Shown here in pieces: positions 26,449 to 40,142 of a DNA stretch of 40,285 nucleotides. The position numbers were made by a program, and so were the translations under genes. Below the pieces are notes generated by a model that was not told the DNA's origin, searched no databases, and saw nothing but the letters and a program-made list of their open reading frames with translations. The DNA is from Pseudomonadota bacterium (GTDB taxonomy: Bacteria; Desulfobacterota; Desulfobacteria; Desulfobacterales; RPRI01). The DNA lies in contig JAHITX010000082.1 of assembly GCA_018817425.1 (NCBI GenBank), positions 1 through 40,285 on the forward strand, read 5' to 3'. Position 1 is the first letter of the stretch. Each line of letters opens with the position of its first letter.

Positions 26449-27681
26449 TTAAGGATTAAGCTCCTTTTCCTGCGGAAAGACCGGCAAATAACGGTATGAA
26501 AAAGATACTATAAGCACACCGTAAGCAAGCGGCAGAATTGTAGTTGCAACCTCCTGCCAGCTTGGAATATACATTTGCCATGTTTCAAATGTTAACACCG
26601 GAGCGGCCATTACCTGAAGAACAAGTACCCAGCGGTTTATACAAACCCCTAACACCGCAAGAATTGCAGCGATTATAAGTGCAGATTTGTTTTTTCGCCC
26701 TTTTTGAGATATCAGTATCAGCGCAGGAAGAATTCCGCAAACTGCTATTTCAAGAACAAGTATCCATATGCCATAAAAAGGATTATTTGAATAAAAATCC
26801 ATAAGACTAAAGCCTTTTTCAGGAAGCGTAACCATTGCCCAATACAGAGTATCTATTATTTTCGCAATTATATAAGTTCCTAACATCCAGCCGGAAATCT
26901 TTGCAAGAAGTTCTATTACATTGTCCTTTACAAGTCTTTTGCCTGTAACTGCTTCAGTGATTTTTGTAATAAGAATTGTAAAACAGGGCCCGCAGGCGGC
27001 AGCCGACCATGTGAAGAGGAAAAATGTCCAGGGCCAGATAAATACTCCTTCTCTGTAACCAAACGGGCGGCCGAACAAAACACCGGATACACCACCCAAA
27101 GATCCCTGATGAAAAAATGACAGAAAAACTCCTGTTGCAGCAAATACGGCCATTATTGAATGCATGTTATGGCCAAGGTGATGGAAAAAGGGGATTTTAT
27201 CTATACGTCGGTTTTCAAGTATGATGGGGATATATTCTATAATTAAAACAAAAAGATAGCATGTAAGACAAAATGCCACTTCGGTAAGCATTGAATGCAC
27301 ATTGGCGTGCCAGAAAATAAACCAGCCTCTTATTGGCTGCCCGACATCAATACCTAATATAATAAGTGCTGAACTGTAGCAGATAAAACCGATAATAACT
27401 GCATAGTTTACAATATTTTTAAGTTCATCTTTGCCGATTATATATCTTAAAAAACCGGTAAAAAATGCCCCGCCGCCAAGCGCTATGATAGCAAGATCGG
27501 CCCAGATCCATAACGCAAAACCATATGCATCATTCATATTGGTCTGGTTAAGACCTTTAATCCAGCAAAGCAGCATGGCATAAACACCCCATAACAGCAC
27601 AGCACTTGCTGCCCCTATCCACAAAGCAAACTGCCATTTAGGACAGCGCTTTAGTTCCCCGGATATAATATTTGAATCCAT
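26449..27681 (-). CDS. qrcD: Menaquinone reductase QrcD, NrfD-like integral membrane subunit
   Basis: This 410-residue protein has about ten hydrophobic helices, with NrfD/PsrC-type segments (GGGAFFTGFLRYI, WHANVHSMLTEV, FFHQGSLGGVSGVLFG). In Qrc it binds menaquinone and receives electrons from QrcC in the membrane. It follows qrcC by 17 bases. The length and helix count fit the family. It is the last qrc gene, and an inverted-repeat element lies just after its stop. Confidence 0.92.
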   Translation of the reverse strand: MDSNIISGELKRCPKWQFALWIGAASAVLLWGVYAMLLCWIKGLNQTNMNDAYGFALWIWADLAIIALGGGAFFTGFLRYIIGKDELKNIVNYAVIIGFICYSSALIILGIDVGQPIRGWFIFWHANVHSMLTEVAFCLTCYLFVLIIEYIPIILENRRIDKIPFFHHLGHNMHSIMAVFAATGVFLSFFHQGSLGGVSGVLFGRPFGYREGVFIWPWTFFLFTWSAAACGPCFTILITKITEAVTGKRLVKDNVIELLAKISGWMLGTYIIAKIIDTLYWAMVTLPEKGFSLMDFYSNNPFYGIWILVLEIAVCGILPALILISQKGRKNKSALIIAAILAVLGVCINRWVLVLQVMAAPVLTFETWQMYIPSWQEVATTILPLAYGVLIVSFSYRYLPVFPQEKELNP

Positions 27682-27698
27682 TGACTACCTATCCTCAA

Positions 27699-28478
27699 TT
27701 AATTCTTTTCATTATTAAGATAATTATCGCCTGCATCTCTAACCCATTTTTTGCTTGAAAGATAATATATTTTAGGATTTGTCTGAAGTCTTTCAAGGAG
27801 CCTGAAAGCGTTTTTATTTTTCTTAAGTTTATAAACTGCATGACCGGTATTATTAAGATCCCCAAATGTAATGGCACCGGCAGGGCATGCCTGCGTACAA
27901 GCCGTCTGGTATTCGCTTTCTGCTACTTCATTGCGGCCTTCATAATATGCTTTGTCTTTTGCAAGCTGATACCTGTGGAAACAAAAGCTGCATTTTTCGA
28001 CAACACCTCTCATGCGCACCGAAACATTAGGGCTTAAGTATTTTTCCATGCCTTTAGGCCAGATCGGGTCCCACCAGTTAAAATATCTTGCGTGATAAGG
28101 ACATGCAGCCATGCAGTATCGGCATCCGAAACATCTTGTATAAATCTGGCTTACAATTCCGGTTTCCATGTTGTAATCGGTTGCTGTTGCAGGACAAACG
28201 GAAACACAGGGCGAATGGCCGTGGTCTCCTTTTCCTCCGCAATGCTGGCAGGGTCTTGGAAGATAACAGATCTGGGTATCAGGAAATGATTTGCCGTTTG
28301 TGAGCCTGTAAACTCTCATCCAGGTAATGCTGTCAAGCTTCTTGGATTCATCTTTCTTGAATGACACATTATTTTCAGCCATACAGGCAACCATGCATGA
28401 CCCGCAACCGGTACATTTATCCAGATCAATTGCCATCCCATATTTTTTAGCGTCTTTACTGCTTTTATCTTCTTTCAT
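27699..28478 (-). CDS. qrcC: Menaquinone reductase QrcC, iron-sulfur subunit
   Basis: This 259-residue ferredoxin-type protein has four Cys groups: CTGCGSCMVAC near residue 22, CQHCGGKGDHGHSPCVSVCP, CFGCRYCMAACP and CSFCFHR with CTQACP. It should hold up to four clusters that wire QrcB and QrcA to the quinone subunit. It has no export signal of its own and would be carried across with the Tat-exported QrcB. It lies 13 bases after qrcB. Confidence 0.92.
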   Translation of the reverse strand: MKEDKSSKDAKKYGMAIDLDKCTGCGSCMVACMAENNVSFKKDESKKLDSITWMRVYRLTNGKSFPDTQICYLPRPCQHCGGKGDHGHSPCVSVCPATATDYNMETGIVSQIYTRCFGCRYCMAACPYHARYFNWWDPIWPKGMEKYLSPNVSVRMRGVVEKCSFCFHRYQLAKDKAYYEGRNEVAESEYQTACTQACPAGAITFGDLNNTGHAVYKLKKNKNAFRLLERLQTNPKIYYLSSKKWVRDAGDNYLNNEKN

Positions 28479-28491
28479 CCAAACCTCATTC

Positions 28492-30636
28492 TCAAACAGC
28501 TTTGCTCAGAGCAGCCCTTATACCCCAGGCTGCATCAAGGCCGGAAGCCGGATCTTTTTGTGTCCCGATCAGTTCATTAACATTAATTCCCTTGCCGGCA
28601 AGATAATTGTCATATGCACTATGGCCAAGTCCTCTCGGCATAGCTATAAGACCGGGCATTATTCCTTCAAACAGATGAATTTTTACTCTTGCCTTTGCTT
28701 TGGAAGTTTCGATTATTGCATAGCTTCCTTCTGTAAGTCCCAAAGCTTTCGCAGTTAGAGGATTTACTTCCACAAGTACATCATTTCCAAGAAGAACTGT
28801 ATCTTCCACTGTTTTTACGGTAAAAGGCGGATCACCTATATAGCCGTTTGCAATTCTGATAGAATCATAGGGTATAAGAATAAACGGGTATTTATCCGGA
28901 TCGGCCCCGGCATCAGGATAAGTAAATAAACTGTTAATATCTGAAAATCCTGCTGTAAAATCAAATTTTTTTGAAGCTGTTTTTAAGGTCAAAAGTTCAG
29001 CTATTCTGTCTTCCCAGAATCCTTGTTCAGAAAGTACTTCCCATTTATCGCCAAGTGCTTCTTCTATAAATGAATCATAATTTTTCCACTTAAAAGAATC
29101 TGCAACAGGCGACCCTATTTTCTTTGCTATCTGAATTATAACATCGCCAGTATGTTTTGTATTAAACGAAGGATCTACAACAGGTACGCAAAGGCTGACA
29201 ACTGGTTTTGGAAGCAATGCTGCATGAACATCTTCATAGCGCTCAAGGTAGATATGGTTAGGTAAAATTAAATCCGAATTCATTGCCGTTTCATCCATAA
29301 ATGATGAAAAACTAACAATATAAGGAATTTTGGCAAAAGCTTTCTTTACAGAATTGGTATCAGGCAGTGAGTAAAGCGGGTTTGATTCATAAACAAAAAG
29401 CGCTTCAGCGCTATATTTTCCTGAGTTAACGTCATCAGTAAAACGGTTGGCAAAGTTTGTTTCGTAATCGGCCATACCCGGCAGTGAAAAATATCTGCGA
29501 CCGGAAACAGTAAAAACGCCCCCTTTTTTGTTTATGTTTCCAACAAGCGCATTTAATGCCTGCACCGCCATAACTTCACCTAAAAATCCCTGTTCTTTAC
29601 CCTGTCCTTTTCCACAGACTGCTAAAGGTTTTGCAGCACCGGCAAAATCATTGGCAAGAGTTTCAATTGTTTCTTTTTTAATGCCTGTTATCTTTTCCAC
29701 CTTGTCAGGTGAATAAAAAGCCTGAACAAATGCGGCAAACTTTGCAAATCCTGAAGCATTGCTTTTTACAAAATTAACATTAAAAAGTGTTTTTGAGATA
29801 ATTACATTTGCAAGCCCCAGGGCCAAAGCGTATTCGGTTCCCGGATTAATCGGAATCCACTTATTTGATTTTGCAGCAGTATTTGAAAGACGCGGTTCAA
29901 TTTGTATAATCTTTCCACCGGCTTCACGTAAAATGCTGTTTGCCCGCATCATGCGAACAGGCGATCCCCAGCCTTCAATAAGACCGCTTCCGAAACTTAA
30001 GATAAAATCGGAATTTTCAATATCAAAGGCAAGCTGTGCTTTTTGTCCTGAAGAACGAAAAGCTGCAAGTTCATAAGCATCGGAAACAGATGGCATCCGC
30101 ATGAAATTGGAAGACCCGTATACCGAAAGAAATTTTTTAAAAAGCGCTGGCACTGTACCCTTATCAGTACCGGAAATACAGGCAACAGAGTTCGATTCCT
30201 TGTTGTTTCTTAATGCCTTAAGTTTTTGAGAAACTTCTGAAATAGCTTCTTCCCAGGATATTGCGATCCATTTTCCTGATCCTCTTTCACCGTCTCTTTT
30301 AAGTGGAGACTCTATACGTGTGGGACCATAGAGAAGTTGCAATCCCGAAAGTCCTAAAAGACAAATTCCCCCGTCATTAACGGGATGCCCTTCTATTCCT
30401 TCTATTTTAACAGCTCTGCCATTAATCTTTCTGACGGAAATTCCACATCCGCCAGTGCAAAGAGTGCATGCAGAATTAACATAAGTTGCTTCACCATCAG
30501 GTGGCACAGGAGTCCAGGGCCATGTCTGCGTCCATATTGCACTGTCATCCATAAGCTTTAATGGCAATGGTGAAAGCGCAATACCTGCCGCACCGCCTAT
30601 TCCAAGCGACAAGAAAGATCTTCTGTCTATTTTCAT
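28492..30636 (-). CDS. qrcB: Menaquinone reductase QrcB, molybdopterin-oxidoreductase-like subunit
   Basis: The 714-residue protein starts with a Tat signal (RRSFLSLGIGGAAG). It carries the 4Fe-4S motif Cys57, Cys60, Cys64 and Cys92 (CTLCTGGC, GGICLLG) and the fold of the DMSO-reductase family. In characterised Qrc the subunit has no molybdenum, so it is a structural and electron-transfer relative rather than an enzyme; that is family knowledge and not visible here. It sits at the periplasmic face. AAGGA precedes the ATG. A 125-bp inverted-repeat element separates it from qrcA. Confidence 0.92.
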   Translation of the reverse strand: MKIDRRSFLSLGIGGAAGIALSPLPLKLMDDSAIWTQTWPWTPVPPDGEATYVNSACTLCTGGCGISVRKINGRAVKIEGIEGHPVNDGGICLLGLSGLQLLYGPTRIESPLKRDGERGSGKWIAISWEEAISEVSQKLKALRNNKESNSVACISGTDKGTVPALFKKFLSVYGSSNFMRMPSVSDAYELAAFRSSGQKAQLAFDIENSDFILSFGSGLIEGWGSPVRMMRANSILREAGGKIIQIEPRLSNTAAKSNKWIPINPGTEYALALGLANVIISKTLFNVNFVKSNASGFAKFAAFVQAFYSPDKVEKITGIKKETIETLANDFAGAAKPLAVCGKGQGKEQGFLGEVMAVQALNALVGNINKKGGVFTVSGRRYFSLPGMADYETNFANRFTDDVNSGKYSAEALFVYESNPLYSLPDTNSVKKAFAKIPYIVSFSSFMDETAMNSDLILPNHIYLERYEDVHAALLPKPVVSLCVPVVDPSFNTKHTGDVIIQIAKKIGSPVADSFKWKNYDSFIEEALGDKWEVLSEQGFWEDRIAELLTLKTASKKFDFTAGFSDINSLFTYPDAGADPDKYPFILIPYDSIRIANGYIGDPPFTVKTVEDTVLLGNDVLVEVNPLTAKALGLTEGSYAIIETSKAKARVKIHLFEGIMPGLIAMPRGLGHSAYDNYLAGKGINVNELIGTQKDPASGLDAAWGIRAALSKAV

Positions 30637-33996: not shown

Positions 33997-35550
33997 TCAT
34001 TCGGTTTTCTCCGGCATCTTTTGTATGAGAATATGCCAGTTAGGGCGGTGCCAGCTTATCCGAAAATGTTCAAGTGTGGATTCTACGGCACGTTGTTCCT
34101 TCTCAATGCCGTCAAGAAAGAGCACAAAGTCAGTCTGGGCGTCTTTGGTTCCATATTGCTCGTCGAATTGGCGCACCATTTCGTTTGGTGTGCTCACCTT
34201 TCTCCCCATTATCTCGGATATGGGAAATCTGATTCCTTTTATCCCGAGCCCAGGCTCGTAGGCCTTGTACACCAATTCCGAACAGACCAGAGAAGCATCG
34301 GTTTCGAAGTCAAAGTTAAAGTCATAAGGCCGTCCGCTATAGTGAAACGCACGCAGTATAGCCGCGGCTTTTTCGGGTTTCATAAGTATAGGCCTGAGCA
34401 CAACTATGGAATCGGCAGCTCCTGAATACTCAAGTGAAGTAAATGATACTCCCTCAGATATTGCCTCCAGAACGCAGGGTGCGTGCCCGCTCTCCTGCGG
34501 GGTCGTACTGATTTTATAGGCATTGGGATAGCGTTGGCTTAGAAGTATTTCCAGATCGCCGTTGGTGACCCCCTCACTTTTTACCCATGCTATCGTTTCC
34601 GGGTCGGATAAAAAAGAACGTCGCTCCTCCGGCGTGCCCACGTATAGGGCTGCGTGGGTCCAAAAACCAGGAAGCCCCATGTTGGACAGATACCATTCGT
34701 GCCGTTCAAAAATGATATCTCCGGGAAGGAGCCGCTTTCTCATTGATTCTATTTGCTCGCCGGATATAAGGTGTATCCCTTTGCGAAGCACTTTAGTATC
34801 CCCCATCCATTCTGAGACGTTCTTTTGAACAGGTAACCAGGCCACAAATGTGGCCTTCTGCACTATTGCCACGGCATTCTTTATGGTTAGGATATAGCCG
34901 GTTCCTTTACCCATCTTCCAGATGTAGTTGCTGTCTTCTTCAATAATAGTGCGAAGTTCCGGTGATGCACTATCTGCTGCATACTTTTTGCCGATGATCT
35001 GGAGTGCAGAAAATTCCGTTGCAATAGCAGCATTAAGGAAGCGAAGTTTGAAGCAGCCAAAACTACCGGCTTCGATGCCAAGCTCAGGGACAGCCTCATC
35101 AAGTATTGTATTTAAGCTGGAGTTCTTGTCTGACAACTCAATAAATTCCAAAGCATATCTGTAGCCGGCCAGGAAGGTGGCGTGGTTCAGAGTAAAAGAG
35201 GTATTACGCCGATATTTATCCGGGAACAAATTAAATTCTTTCCACTTACTTCGGATCGTATCCAAAGCAGCCAGACTGTCCAGCACGGAACTCCAGGTGT
35301 TCCAGATAGCCAGCTTATCCTGCCGTGTTAAAAGATAGCTCTTTTTAATATTATTTTGGTTGAATAGGTCAGGCCGGGAGCGGGTAAAATCAGCAGCCCT
35401 TTGAAGACCGGCACGGGCGATCATAAAAGCATGGCTGGAAGCTAAGATGCGCTTCTGAAAATTTTCATCAGCAGAGGCATCAGCGCGAAACTCTGTGTTA
35501 GTGAAGATAAGCACTGCAAAGACAAGAATTAACCCAACAATCCGTTTCAT
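33997..35550 (-). CDS. Exported YiiX/YebB-like permuted NlpC/P60 hydrolase
   Basis: This 517-residue protein has a signal peptide (about 1-26) and a helical N-terminal part. A C-terminal cysteine-hydrolase domain follows with the circularly permuted order: LLPGDIIFERH, His299 in FWTHAALYVG, then Cys423 in LVCSELVYKAY. Members of this family cleave peptide or amide bonds in cell-wall or lipid substrates. It acts in the periplasm. The target cannot be told. It stands alone and is followed by the ABC remnant. Confidence 0.85.
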   Translation of the reverse strand: MKRIVGLILVFAVLIFTNTEFRADASADENFQKRILASSHAFMIARAGLQRAADFTRSRPDLFNQNNIKKSYLLTRQDKLAIWNTWSSVLDSLAALDTIRSKWKEFNLFPDKYRRNTSFTLNHATFLAGYRYALEFIELSDKNSSLNTILDEAVPELGIEAGSFGCFKLRFLNAAIATEFSALQIIGKKYAADSASPELRTIIEEDSNYIWKMGKGTGYILTIKNAVAIVQKATFVAWLPVQKNVSEWMGDTKVLRKGIHLISGEQIESMRKRLLPGDIIFERHEWYLSNMGLPGFWTHAALYVGTPEERRSFLSDPETIAWVKSEGVTNGDLEILLSQRYPNAYKISTTPQESGHAPCVLEAISEGVSFTSLEYSGAADSIVVLRPILMKPEKAAAILRAFHYSGRPYDFNFDFETDASLVCSELVYKAYEPGLGIKGIRFPISEIMGRKVSTPNEMVRQFDEQYGTKDAQTDFVLFLDGIEKEQRAVESTLEHFRISWHRPNWHILIQKMPEKTE

Positions 35551-35764: not shown

Positions 35765-36577
35765 TCACCATAAAAACGCAACTCCACGCTTGCCCAGGAT
35801 GTAGTCATCAAATATTGTTGAAGCCGGTTTGTTCGCCATACCAAGACACACATGGAGTGGCAATAAATGTTCTTCTCGGGGGTGACAGTATCGCGCCGAA
35901 GGGGCTTTCTGCCACTCAATCAGAAATTGTTCACGCTCAGACTGGGATATCGGGCCGGCACATACCTCAATCAGCCAATTTTGGAAGGCTTCATTGGCAG
36001 GATCTGGCGTATTAATTCCTTGCAAAGAAAAGGCTTTCATGTTGTGGAATGAAAACCCGGATCCAATCACAAGGATATTCTCATACATCAATTCCCGCAA
36101 CGCTTTGCCGAGAGCTATATGTGCCGTCGGATTAAGACCGCTCAATAGCGAAAGTTGCAGCGAAGTAATATCAGCTTGAGGATACATCAGTTTCAGTGGT
36201 ATGAATAAGCCGTGGTCAAATCCCCGCTGAGGATCTATACTAGCCGGTATATTGTTTTTGATCAGCAGGCTGGCTATCCTATTCGCAAGATCGGGACTTC
36301 CAGGGGCTGGATAATTGATTTCATAAGCTTCATCAGGAAAACCATAATAATCGTAAAACATGGGAGGAGTATGTGCGCCTAACAATGTTGCTATGCTTTC
36401 TTCCCAATGGGCACTGATGACGAGGATAGCATCCGGTTTCTTAAGCTTCGAAGGAAGCTGGAGCATAAAACTTATCATCGCTTTGTGGCCGGCATCTCCG
36501 AGAATTGGCAAGGGTCCGCCTCCGTGGGAGAAATAGACAATTTGGGCTTGATTTCGAGAATTATTTTGATTCGACAT
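35765..36577 (-). CDS. DODA-type (LigB family) extradiol dioxygenase
   Basis: This 270-residue protein has the metal-binding His set of class III extradiol enzymes: His18 (YFSHGGGPLPI), His57 (ISAHWE), His122 (GFDHGLFIPL), His178 and His232-His242 (CHPREEHLLPLH). It resembles 4,5-DOPA dioxygenase (YgiD). Such enzymes need oxygen, which is odd for a strict anaerobe. A different chemistry, as in the related MEMO proteins, is possible. It shares one base with the end of the GGDEF gene and is the last gene of the corrinoid operon. Confidence 0.88.
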   Translation of the reverse strand: MSNQNNSRNQAQIVYFSHGGGPLPILGDAGHKAMISFMLQLPSKLKKPDAILVISAHWEESIATLLGAHTPPMFYDYYGFPDEAYEINYPAPGSPDLANRIASLLIKNNIPASIDPQRGFDHGLFIPLKLMYPQADITSLQLSLLSGLNPTAHIALGKALRELMYENILVIGSGFSFHNMKAFSLQGINTPDPANEAFQNWLIEVCAGPISQSEREQFLIEWQKAPSARYCHPREEHLLPLHVCLGMANKPASTIFDDYILGKRGVAFLW

Positions 36578-38085
36578 TAAAACCTTTCTGCTAAATCATT
36601 TTTAAGTTGTTTCACCGCAGTGCGGTTTCTCCCGGTTGACTTGGCCGCATAAAGCGCCTGGTCCGCTGACATAAGCAGTGATTGCGCAGATAAATGGGAA
36701 GTATGCACACAGCAGGCCACACCCAGGCTTAACGTAATCCATGGACTGATCTGCGAATTGGCATGGGGGATGCCCTGCTTTTCGATCGAGTGCCGAATGT
36801 TTTCTGCCAGTTGGAAAGCCCCCTCTTCCGGCGTATCCGGCAGCACAAGCACGAACTCTTCACCTCCGTAGCGCGCAACCAAATCACCGGGCCGCTTGCA
36901 ATTGGAGGAAAGCTCTGTAGCTACCTTACGCAAACAATCATCACCCGCTTGATGGCCGTAAGTGTCGTTATACAGCTTAAAATAATCCACATCACACATA
37001 ATAACTGACAGAGGTTGCCGTTCCCGCGCCATGCGCTTCCATTCCTGCTCAATACACTGATCGAACCTGCGGCGGTTTGCTATGCCGGTTAGTCCGTCTA
37101 TTTCAGAAAGGTCTTTGATCTCCTGGTAGTATCTGGCGTTCTCTAAGGCCATCCCACAGACATCCATCAAGCCTGAAGATAGGATCAGGTATCTGTCTAT
37201 GTATTCCGGAAATTGCAGGCCATCCAGTTCAAACCTGCCCATCAATCTTCCGTTTGCAGAAATCGGCAAAACAAAGCCCTTTTCGCGGCGGATGACCGCA
37301 TCTGTGGCAGGAGAAATATCTGGCTCCTCTTTTTTATATGTAATGGTACGGGGTGCAAAAAGCATATTGAACATATCGGTAATCTGACTGACCACCTCAT
37401 CTTCATTTTTGACTTTGGTGATTGTCCTTAAAAGGTCAAAGGCCATGGCATAATAAGACAGCTCTTTCTGTTTCTCATCAAGCAGGCTCAGATGTTCGTT
37501 ACTGAATAGTTTAACCTGTCTTTGAATGACGACATTGGCAACAAAAAGGTCAATAAAGCCAAGTCCTACCGTTAGGGCTTCATACGGTCTATCAACAAAA
37601 TCCGAAAATTCCTGAAGGTTGCGGTATGCCGCATCATCCACCCCCGTATCGAGCATCAGGATTTCCTTGGCTGACTCGGCAAAGTAGCTTTGAGCCGTAG
37701 GCCGGTCAAATCCCCATGCATTGACAAACTGCCTCCATGATGACAACCACCCCGGAGTTACCAGGTGCCGTCCTTCGCTGACATACTTATCCACCAGGTC
37801 CGGATTGGCAATCATGTGAAAACAATTGCGCATGCCATGGATGTGAAATGGTTTATAGTCCGGAAGTTCAGGTTCGGTGACGCAGAGGCTTCCAAGAACA
37901 TCTACCGCAGCATAGTCCATCGGCCCCAACAGAATGTTTTTCATCTTGTCCAGTTCTACCGGCGGTCTTCCGCATGTTCCGGGAAAAAATACAATTTGAA
38001 CATGAGGGTATTTCTCGGACACCTTAAGTTTTTCGATCTCCTGTCGAAAAATGCTGCAACACAGAATAGCATGCTTGCCGCTCAT
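36577..38085 (-). CDS. DUF1638-GAF-like-GGDEF diguanylate cyclase
   Basis: Residues 1 to about 190 match DUF1638 (ILCCSIFRQEIEKL, FFPGTCGRPP, HGMRNCFHMI, LVTPGWLSSW), a domain normally coded beside corrinoid methyltransferase genes. A GAF-like region follows (about 200-325), then a GGDEF domain with active-site GGEEF at 407-411 and the inhibitory I-site RPGD at 398-401. It should make cyclic di-GMP in the cytoplasm under control of the N-terminal domains. The gene overlaps both neighbours by 4 and 1 bases. The fusion of DUF1638 to a GGDEF enzyme looks unusual. Confidence 0.88.
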   Translation of the reverse strand: MSGKHAILCCSIFRQEIEKLKVSEKYPHVQIVFFPGTCGRPPVELDKMKNILLGPMDYAAVDVLGSLCVTEPELPDYKPFHIHGMRNCFHMIANPDLVDKYVSEGRHLVTPGWLSSWRQFVNAWGFDRPTAQSYFAESAKEILMLDTGVDDAAYRNLQEFSDFVDRPYEALTVGLGFIDLFVANVVIQRQVKLFSNEHLSLLDEKQKELSYYAMAFDLLRTITKVKNEDEVVSQITDMFNMLFAPRTITYKKEEPDISPATDAVIRREKGFVLPISANGRLMGRFELDGLQFPEYIDRYLILSSGLMDVCGMALENARYYQEIKDLSEIDGLTGIANRRRFDQCIEQEWKRMARERQPLSVIMCDVDYFKLYNDTYGHQAGDDCLRKVATELSSNCKRPGDLVARYGGEEFVLVLPDTPEEGAFQLAENIRHSIEKQGIPHANSQISPWITLSLGVACCVHTSHLSAQSLLMSADQALYAAKSTGRNRTAVKQLKNDLAERF

Positions 38086-39140
38086 ACCGTTTCTCCTGGG
38101 ACAATCGGATAGCGGCCATAGGTTTCAACAGCCTCTGACAGGGCCATCAGCACATCTTCATGTACTTGCCAAGGTATCTCGCCATGATTGTCCGACAGGA
38201 TAAACCCCCCTCCTGGGCCTGCCTTTGTAATGGCCTTTTTTACAGCTGACTCCGTCTGTGCTGTATCCCAGCGCGCCATTTCTATGCCATTTAGATTTCC
38301 AATAACGGCCAGCCTTCCCCTGCATTTGTTTTTGATGTCCTCCAGGTCCTCCAGTTCGCTGACTCCTATGGCAGTCGTCCCGGTGAGGGCAAGGTCTTCG
38401 GCAATAGGCAGGCATCGCCCTGAAGCCATATGGGTGGCTGTTGGTCCTTTGATGCGGGAGATTGTGCTCTTTGCGATGGCAAATCCGGTTTTAAGGTAAA
38501 GCTCCCGGGGTACATTGGTCGGGGAGGACAACGGATCGAAATAACAAATGGCCGTCGCACCTGCCCCAAGTTGTGCATTTGCCCATTCGACGCAGAATTC
38601 CTGGTTTAATTTCATTAGCTGCTCGAACAGTCGGGGTTGTTCATAGATCAGATCGATATAGGAGAAAAACCCCATTTGCATCACAGGCAGGGAAAAAGGA
38701 GACATTACAACCCCGATGATCGGGGCCTCCTCACCGATATCTTCTTTTATCATTTGGGTGGCCTTGAGCACCTTTATCAGACAGGGGATGTCTTTAACGC
38801 GAGGCAGTGTCAATCGTGTAATGTCATCGGGTTTCCTTATAAAAGGTGCGCCTGCATTCGGAGGGCCATCATCTACATAAATAACATTTCCACCCCAGGC
38901 CTCGAATTCCACTGCGGCATAAAAAAAGCTGTAGAGACAATCATGCCGGTATTTCTTCCTCATCAGAAGCTGTCCTAAGGCAACAGATTCGGCTTTTGAG
39001 AAATACTCTTGAATCGACACGCCAAGTTCCATTGCCCCGTGCATGGTCAACAGGAGGAAAAAAGGGACACGATCAGGTTCCTTGTGTCCCAAAGTGGTAA
39101 GAACCCGCTGCAATGAGGTCATCGAGGGGGCAGCCATCAT
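38082..39140 (-). CDS. Uroporphyrinogen-decarboxylase-family (MtaA/CmuA-like) methyltransferase
   Basis: The 352-residue protein has the UroD/MtaA barrel: an RVLTTLGHKEPDRVPFF start and a central GVVMSPFSLPVMQMG. THMASGRC stands in place of the zinc-binding His-X-Cys motif, and the C-terminal Cys motif is absent (ILSDNHGEI). MtaA enzymes transfer methyl groups from a corrinoid protein to a thiol. The altered metal ligands suggest a different reaction or acceptor. It overlaps both the corrinoid gene and the DUF1638-GGDEF gene by four bases. Confidence 0.85.
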   Translation of the reverse strand: MMAAPSMTSLQRVLTTLGHKEPDRVPFFLLLTMHGAMELGVSIQEYFSKAESVALGQLLMRKKYRHDCLYSFFYAAVEFEAWGGNVIYVDDGPPNAGAPFIRKPDDITRLTLPRVKDIPCLIKVLKATQMIKEDIGEEAPIIGVVMSPFSLPVMQMGFFSYIDLIYEQPRLFEQLMKLNQEFCVEWANAQLGAGATAICYFDPLSSPTNVPRELYLKTGFAIAKSTISRIKGPTATHMASGRCLPIAEDLALTGTTAIGVSELEDLEDIKNKCRGRLAVIGNLNGIEMARWDTAQTESAVKKAITKAGPGGGFILSDNHGEIPWQVHEDVLMALSEAVETYGRYPIVPGETV

Positions 39141-39769
39141 GCGATTTCTCCATATATAGATTGAACGATCTTGATTGCGTCAGATGCCGTATATCCGACA
39201 GCGTCGGCCCCAACCTGGCGCCAAAGGTGAGGGTCAAGCCTGAACGGAGCGCCGCCGACCACTATCTTCACCGTGTATCCATTTTTATCGAGCTGTTCTC
39301 TGATATCCTTTACATGCAGCGCCGAAGGAAACATTAATACGGAAATAAGGATAACATCAAGGCCGTCATCCATTATCTTTTTAACAAGACCTTCAACGCC
39401 GAGCCTTCCATAGTCCAGCAGATCAAACCCGCAGGCACGAAGCGCTGAATACACAATACGCTTGCCGAGGGCATGATAGTCGTTGAGCGTGGTTATTGCC
39501 ATTTTGGTCGCAATATTTTTCTTCCTGTCTTCTTTTGGCAGCAGAGTATCAACCAGTTCTTCACAAATCCTTCCGCTCATATAAACCTGTGCGAGAGCAT
39601 AATGCCCTGCTTCCCAGCCCTTTCCAATATTTTCAAGCGCGCTTACAATTACCGTTTCGACAAGCTGCTCTGCAGTCGTATTGGTCGTTGCTTCAGCCAG
39701 TAGCCGTCTGGCCTTAATAACATCTATCGACAATAAAGCTGCCTGAAACTCACTCAATATTTCTGTCAT
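39137..39769 (-). CDS. Cobalamin-binding (corrinoid) protein, MtaC/MttC-like
   Basis: The 210-residue protein has an N-terminal helical cap (about 1-85) and a Rossmann-like B12 domain. The base-off ligand motif DYHALG at 97-102 gives His99 as the cobalt ligand, and GGAPFRLDPHL lies near the C-terminus. It would carry a methyl group between a substrate-specific methyltransferase, not visible here, and the MtaA-like protein. It is the first gene of the four-gene operon. Confidence 0.92.
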   Translation of the reverse strand: MTEILSEFQAALLSIDVIKARRLLAEATTNTTAEQLVETVIVSALENIGKGWEAGHYALAQVYMSGRICEELVDTLLPKEDRKKNIATKMAITTLNDYHALGKRIVYSALRACGFDLLDYGRLGVEGLVKKIMDDGLDVILISVLMFPSALHVKDIREQLDKNGYTVKIVVGGAPFRLDPHLWRQVGADAVGYTASDAIKIVQSIYGEIA

Positions 39770-39875
39770 TGCCTCTCCATGACCGATGTGCTCCGAACTC
39801 TCAAACCTCGCGGTTAGCGAAGTTTTGTTTGTAAATTAAGGTTTTAACGATTAAGCATTATAACCTAAAATATAG
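39770..39875. other. Short region upstream of the corrinoid operon
   Basis: It should hold the operon promoter. I see no clear box or repeat. Confidence 0.3.
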
Positions 39876-39878
39876 GTT

Positions 39879-40142
39879 TTGTCATGTTTTTATGACTATT
39901 TAAGGAATAAAGATGGCAAAGAGATTGATTTTTGTGTCACAACTGATAATACTCCTTCATTAATGATAGAAGTAAAATGGAATGATGAAAATCTGAGTTC
40001 AAATTTTGAGATTTTTAAAAAATATTTTCCGCGGATAAAAATGATACAGGTGACAAAGGAACTGAAAAGGGAAAAAACATTTCCAAATGGCGCTGAAATC
40101 AGGATTGCACATAAATGGCTTTCCGGGTTAAACCTGAGCTGA
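39879..40142 (+). pseudogene. C-terminal remnant of a DUF4143-type AAA ATPase
   Basis: The frame reads FYDYLRNKDGKEIDFCV and LMIEVKWNDENLSSNFEIF, the restriction-endonuclease-like tail of DUF4143 AAA ATPases. Members have about 400 residues; only about 87 remain, with a stop just upstream and no ribosome site. It is a broken gene. Confidence 0.75.

Follow-up and report, generated by a model that had tools for sequence, protein, structure and literature searches.

A conserved corrinoid-UroD gene pair with interchangeable signalling outputs: a candidate corrinoid-based sensory module in Desulfobacterales

UroD-fold proteins encoded beside corrinoid proteins are familiar from methyl-transfer systems, namely MtaA/MtbA/MtsA, CmuA, OdmB/VdmB, CdmBCA and the Mlp clusters, and the UroD superfamily includes corrinoid-dependent O-, S- and halogen-demethylases (PMC10418091). 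How such systems are regulated is less well covered: Acetobacterium dehalogenans has 26 of them, whose regulation has been called largely unexplored (PMC13222342). We analysed a related gene pair on a 40,285-nucleotide stretch of DNA (hereafter the window), which is one whole contig (JAHITX010000082.1) of a 5.1-Mb, 147-contig genome of a Desulfobacterales bacterium (assembly GCA_018817425.1). In contrast to MtaA/CmuA-type systems, the operon in the window has a signalling protein in place of the activator and acceptor enzyme, and its UroD-family protein is without the His-Cys-Cys site and scores far below every curated NCBIfam cut-off. Among open-licence papers we found no description of a corrinoid-UroD-DUF1638 signalling operon.

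Other described systems share single features with this locus. In the DUF1638/RamA-like/three-part methionine synthase system of Phaeobacter inhibens, DUF1638 is likewise encoded beside a corrinoid-protein gene and is genetically tied to corrinoid function, with mutants that are rescued by methionine and in fitness resemble mutants of the split B12-dependent methionine synthase; its authors propose no specific molecular role for it (PMC5764234). There DUF1638 is a separate metabolic protein, whereas here it is fused to a GGDEF domain or a kinase and carries a fourth cysteine, C38. In CarH and the photocobilins a cobalamin domain controls a signalling output, which in AbDPcob is a diguanylate cyclase (PMC11796333), much as in the module proposed here. 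Unlike these, the corrinoid protein of the window is a separate, methyltransferase-type protein with an enzyme-like partner, and the light signature is mostly missing. WspR and PleD (PDB 3i5c and 1w25) also have a GGDEF domain with GG(D/E)EF and RxxD motifs, but their inputs are receiver domains rather than DUF1638 and a GAF-like domain.

A previous sequence-only reading of the window had described four overlapping genes as an operon that joins corrinoid methyl transfer to cyclic di-GMP (c-di-GMP) signalling. Open reading frame coordinates confirm the layout: on the minus strand, successive overlaps of 4, 4 and 1 bases link the genes for a 210-residue corrinoid (cobalamin-binding) protein (COR, 39137..39769), a 352-residue UroD/MtaA-family protein (URD, 38082..39140), a 502-residue DUF1638/GAF-like/GGDEF signalling protein (36577..38085) and a 270-residue LigB/DODA-type dioxygenase (35765..36577). 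Pfam matches of all four proteins exceed curated cut-offs. The conserved unit consists of COR, URD and the signalling protein, co-inherited as an operon, and this three-gene cassette bears out the proposed wiring of corrinoid and UroD parts to a c-di-GMP enzyme.

Below, L and G numbers denote loci and genomes, and class I comprises loci with URD relatives of the window type. Searching 389 genomes of the order with URD (E <= 1e-60) recovered 36 genomes, and COR lies directly upstream of URD in all 36 (as 85 residues only in L106), so the arrangement is not due to chance. A gene related to the 502-residue protein follows URD in 35 of the 36, the exception being L095, whose contig stops after URD. 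The converse search with the DUF1638/GAF-like region gave the same picture, as COR and URD adjoin the match in all 17 of the 389 genomes where it covers both domains, and also adjoin the three such matches found outside the order, in G338 and G135 of the phylum and on a plasmid of Azoarcus sp. KH32C. The check suggested by the sequence-only reading was thus borne out, in that all DUF1638-fused signalling proteins found adjoin COR and UroD-family genes. Its broader statement that DUF1638 genes lie near corrinoid systems holds for these fused two-domain proteins (17/17 in the order, 3/3 outside) but not for most separate copies: for 11 of 13 DUF1638-only loci in the phylum, the neighbouring 1.5 kb or so contains neither a COR nor a UroD relative, the other two (L009 and L010) belonging to class II, and four loci of the order (L157, L158, L159 and L161) likewise have DUF1638 without COR or UroD. 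The exact architecture of the window, ending in GGDEF, recurs in G691 (L101) and G724 (L100). The Azoarcus cassette consists of COR, URD, a DUF1638-kinase and a second kinase, with fae/fhc about 3 kb away and a pyrroloquinoline quinone methanol/ethanol dehydrogenase at about 6 kb, a neighbourhood that points to one-carbon compounds in this single named example.

Co-occurrence of all four genes, by contrast, was found only in part: COR, URD and the third gene recur, but the other 39 class I loci contain no match to LigB. We therefore rejected LigB as a module member and regard it as an accidental neighbour outside the conserved unit, not the functional partner that had been suggested, and the proposed link to methoxy-aromatic sensing loses its main prop with it. 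The family assignment itself stands for LigB (115.2 bits, over the Pfam cut-off) but not for DODA, as the NF007914 score is 134.3 bits against a cut-off of 233.

Across the 40 class I loci (the 36 of the order, L027, L028, L029, and L154 with a URD shortened to 138 residues), the third protein ends in a Cys-rich tail in 17, a histidine kinase in 15 (detected by Pfam in 13 and by phmmer alone in L085 and L093) and GGDEF in 3, while in the remaining 5 it is cut by the contig end before the output (4) or missing at a contig end (1). The same input is therefore joined to swapped outputs. Since at least two other outputs occur besides GGDEF, the system is not restricted to c-di-GMP; c-di-GMP is the predicted output for the window, where the GGDEF motifs are intact, and GGDEF was seen in 3 of 40 class I loci. 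Parsimony on a URD tree that excludes L105 and L106 (split or partial URD) and L154 gives five changes between GGDEF, histidine kinase and Cys-rich tail, from a short search that left 17 of 42 inner branches unresolved. On the input side, 17 of the order's 35 third proteins carry DUF1638, and the other 18 have the GAF-like part only, including that of L076, which is cut after 67 residues. One of the 17 Cys-rich-tail proteins also has DUF1638 and PAS, and in L092 the linked third gene is the 243-residue one, another GAF-GGDEF gene lying some 4 kb from it. The Cys-rich C-terminal tail (IPICSHCKKIRDDKGYW...HGICxxC type) is conserved, has the look of a zinc finger and matches no Pfam family; it was seen in the third genes of L091, L086, L154 and L028 and in the class II sensor of L175.

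Corrinoid-UroD pairs have repeatedly been joined to signalling proteins, and either DUF1638 or RACo takes the same place in the row. A second UroD clade, about 20-27% identical to URD in the 6 of 10 members compared, defines class II: 11 matches at E <= 1e-40 in the order, less G672 and G710, which are class I, leave 9 genomes, to which G370 is added. All 10 loci have the gene order COR, UroD, sensor protein with a shared N-terminal domain, and 9 have a separate DUF1638 gene between UroD and sensor. The sensor output is a histidine kinase in 8 loci; of the other two, one has GGDEF and one the Cys-rich tail. L010, a partial eleventh locus (UroD, DUF1638 and sensor before the contig ends), fits this plan and is kept outside these counts. 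On plasmid pTs417 of Candidatus Thiodictyon syntrophicum (L164, NZ_CP020371.1, 4335-9326), genes for a cobalamin protein, a UroD protein, RACo and a GAF-GAF-GGDEF protein stand in a row, apparently an independent version of the plan (class III).

The identity of COR as a corrinoid protein is supported by Pfam (B12-binding_2, 42.6 bits; B12-binding, 59.5 bits) and by invariant cobalamin motifs. DxHxxG, SxL and GG are the cobalamin motifs of methyltransferase-type corrinoid proteins, and COR keeps all three in every row that covers them; over 39 aligned rows, of which L106 is the partial one, the invariant residues are D97, H99, G102, S143, L145 and GGAPF at 172-176, together with W52 and Y63. 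Its 38 class I relatives are 43-56% identical to it. COR stays below the NCBIfam cut-offs for named corrinoid proteins (pyl_corrinoid, 76.9 against 215.3 bits; MtbC, 64.3 against 350); its best solved relatives are methylamine corrinoid proteins, and the GGDEF protein 8j2y is among the PDB matches to its profile. We considered CarH-type light sensing and rejected it because the published light signature (GxxW, EH, GxxH, GxxxP) is mostly absent. GxxW is present (G49, W52), the EH position reads V62-Y63 in the window, with Y63 invariant, and neither GxxH nor GxxxP was seen in the alignment, all positions being read by eye.

URD is the most constrained piece of the cassette, being 47-70% identical to its 38 class I relatives, above the values for COR and the third protein, and 57 of its residues, including H34, D67, D202, H237, S240, N318 and H319, are invariant over 39 rows, some of them partial. 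It matches Pfam URO-D at 176.1 bits, and its nearest models are MtaA/CmuA-type families, whose NCBIfam cut-offs it does not reach (MtaA_Meth, 86.7 against 400 bits; mtaA_cmuA, 81.9 against 235.4). The altered metal ligands noted in the sequence-only reading are real: in one alignment CmuA reads HTC...PGC where URD reads HMA...DNH (H237-M-A239, N318-H319), so the thiol-activating His-Cys-Cys site is not present. Across class I the HxC...C of CmuA becomes HxA (HxS in L028) followed by DNH or ENH, and class II UroD proteins have HH or HS and no Cys at these positions. His-Cys-Cys marks the S-methyltransferases of the superfamily, O-methyltransferases replace one or both Cys (PMC10418091), and the chloromethane enzyme CdmB functions without zinc (PMC13222342). 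By these rules the missing zinc-site Cys residues make it unlikely that URD is an MtaA-type thiol methyltransferase; possible alternatives are a donor-specific methyltransferase I and a non-metal relative. Since the superfamily also includes demethylases (PMC10418091) and URD is without the S-methyltransferase zinc site, URD itself may be the methyl-taking enzyme, which casts doubt on the earlier claim that a methyltransferase I is missing here. A search of viral contigs with the URD profile gave 14 pattern matches and no relative.

In the third protein, DUF1638 (residues 30-178; 37552..37998) matches PF07796 at 29.8 bits against a cut-off of 27 and is the genome's sole match to that family at E <= 0.001. 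Across 20 fused and 10 separate copies, conservation of its residues C10, C68 and C88 is 90-100%, whereas C38 is found in 90% of the fused copies and in none of the separate ones; the conserved cysteines would suit a metal or Fe-S site. The GGDEF domain (36622..37104; 181.1 bits) has the motifs of an active diguanylate cyclase, RPGD (RxxD, residues 398-401) followed by GGEEF (407-411), and is predicted to synthesize c-di-GMP. Between them, residues 196-322 (37120..37500) form the GAF-like sensory domain, the part of the third protein most widely common to class I. Identity to the window over the DUF1638/GAF-like region is 24-36% in the 19 relatives with long coverage. The DUF1638-GAF-GGDEF label given earlier holds for its two ends, both over cut-off, but is not established for its middle: the match to GAF_2 is weak (E 0.25), no solved structure matched at E 0.1, and the hhalign probability is 3% in comparison with two GAF domains that Pfam supports and 21% in comparison with the sensory domain of class II, whose own members match GAF models at E 0.0016 at best. 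Searching the genome's contigs with the whole protein gave one match, to the GGDEF part only.

We compared these cassettes with the other corrinoid genes of the same genome. Six of its seven B12-binding_2 matches lie in L144-L148. The one histidine kinase or GGDEF match that phmmer gave there is a kinase fragment in L145, at a distance of about 6 kb. Pterin-binding genes (PF00809) occur in L147 and L148, and L144 and L145 each carry a gene for a sigma-54 activator on the opposite strand; at such ordinary corrinoid loci the regulator is a separate gene of another type among metabolic genes. L144, L145 and L147 are probably separate demethylation loci. A congener's DUF1638 locus, L032, carries both RACo and a pterin-binding gene. 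One of three pterin-binding genes at control loci also matches MtrH. Beside the 40 class I and 10 class II loci, within the flanks examined, there are no RACo or pterin-binding (MtrH-type) genes. In L144 and L147, the corrinoid genes stand near low-scoring UroD-family genes. A gene set resembling a tripartite ATP-independent periplasmic (TRAP) transporter follows the cassette in L086 (9536-13943) and likewise in L087, L090 and L106, all of one genus; DctP was found by Pfam in L086 and DctM once among the neighbours, and the set is a possible regulated target.

Taken together, a corrinoid-based sensory module, in which methylation or redox state gates c-di-GMP or a phosphorelay, is the best explanation, one that these sequence comparisons make narrowly probable. 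It is favoured because of the co-inheritance, the output swapping, the repeats in other UroD lineages, the intact COR motifs and the lack of local RACo and pterin-binding genes, and further by the genetic tie of DUF1638 to a B12 methionine synthase in Phaeobacter inhibens (PMC5764234) and the one-carbon genes near the Azoarcus cassette. Its parts differ in strength: the first three genes very likely form a signalling module rather than a catabolic pathway, the state of COR is quite plausibly the signal, and methyl transfer by URD as the sensing step is, we infer, a nearly even call that leans slightly against. URD would move a methyl or similar group between a small molecule and the cobalt of COR; the DUF1638/GAF-like region would dock COR and read whether the cobalt is methylated or reduced, and DUF1638 with its conserved cysteines may also reset it; the change in COR state would then set the activity of the C-terminal diguanylate cyclase and hence c-di-GMP. 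As a general output-swappable principle, in which a UroD-superfamily enzyme methylates or demethylates a dedicated corrinoid protein and a DUF1638/GAF-like receiver passes the cobalt methylation on to c-di-GMP or a phosphorelay, the idea is tentative, and we doubt it more than we trust it.

Several observations weigh against the sensory module. DUF1638 is not the sole reader, because 18 of 35 third proteins show none, and the GAF assignment of residues 196-322 is weak, with a fold that Pfam, PDB and hhalign do not establish. Single-sequence structure predictions of URD and of the DUF1638/GAF-like region gave no usable fold (mean predicted local distance difference test scores of 37 and 40), and URD catalysis may be absent. 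Regulators adjoin ordinary COR-UroD loci too (L144 and L145), so a nearby regulator is not telling alone. Flanks are short in several contigs, so the absence of RACo is local, and the genome has five RACo_C_ter matches elsewhere; in L031 (11851-16086) a 1,411-residue BadF/BcrAD-type activase with DUF2229 directly follows the class I cassette and could be its corrinoid reactivator. The cassettes also have no consistent metabolic neighbours: among 81 of the 115 non-signalling proteins listed, no Pfam family occurs in more than three (25 of 136 families listed). This same lack, with that of local RACo and pterin-binding genes, makes the cassette look like a travelling signalling unit and not part of one pathway.

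In a catabolic demethylation operon under c-di-GMP control, COR and URD would break down a methylated compound, possibly a methoxy-aromatic one, LigB would open its ring and GGDEF would adjust lifestyle to the flux. The four overlapping genes, the demethylases in the superfamily (PMC10418091), a URD metal site altered as in O-methyltransferases and the oxidoreductase and sigma-54 activator genes beside the genome's other COR-UroD loci all fit it. Yet LigB is unmatched in 39 of 39 other class I loci, none of the 40 has RACo or pterin-binding genes, and outputs vary on a constant input; moreover, dsrA (621 bits, over cut-off) suggests that the organism is likely an anaerobe, whereas extradiol cleavage needs O2. 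We consider this account unlikely, and the demethylation role in the sequence-only reading is disfavoured with it, as no RACo or pterin-binding methyltransferase lies near the cassette and the output varies rather than the input.

COR might instead report cobalamin supply, redox or light, URD then serving as a chaperone or handling tetrapyrroles, without any methyl donor. Cobalamin-based sensors are known, among them AbDPcob, in which a diguanylate cyclase is coupled to a cobalamin domain (PMC11796333); there is a link between DUF1638 and corrinoid reactivation (PMC5764234), the PDB matches of the COR profile include the GGDEF protein 8j2y, and class II UroD is likewise without His-Cys-Cys. 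A non-catalytic partner would hardly be expected to keep 47-70% identity and 57 invariant residues, however, and COR has only GxxW of the light signature, with the invariant Y63 where EH would end, so that we hold this version to be rather improbable. That there is no sensing at all, the signalling gene being a passive neighbour of a COR-URD enzyme with its own job, is very unlikely: several other neighbours of the cassettes are also kinases, so such genes are common there, but DUF1638 is fused in frame to the output in proteins that, wherever found, adjoin COR-URD; three UroD lineages show signalling outputs; and within the stretches examined the genome's six other corrinoid genes have no histidine kinase or GGDEF match except the kinase fragment about 6 kb from one of them.

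Elsewhere in the window, a candidate sigma-70-like promoter (39857..39885, minus strand; ATGACA, 17 nucleotides, TATAAT) lies about 90 bases 5' of the COR start codon; it is a consensus match at 11 of 12 positions and the best among 19 sites in the region, where 10.4 are expected. No Rfam family reaches its gathering score in the window, and a cobalamin riboswitch or other Rfam RNA was rejected, as none did so in six sources. Adjoining the operon on the same strand, 33997-35550 encodes a protein of 517 residues whose Peptidase_C92 domain is YiiX-like. At 26449-30636 there is a row of molybdopterin oxidoreductase, 4Fe-4S and NrfD genes, a set resembling polysulfide/thiosulfate reductases.

The combination of corrinoid protein, UroD-family protein and often DUF1638 with interchangeable outputs makes the regulation of methyltransferases and the role of DUF1638 testable, since a GGDEF or kinase output offers a simple readout for COR/URD sensing and DUF1638 function. 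Reading of the methyl state, if true, would add a non-light mode to B12-based signalling, in which a cell would gauge a metabolite by running a small amount of its chemistry on a B12 protein.

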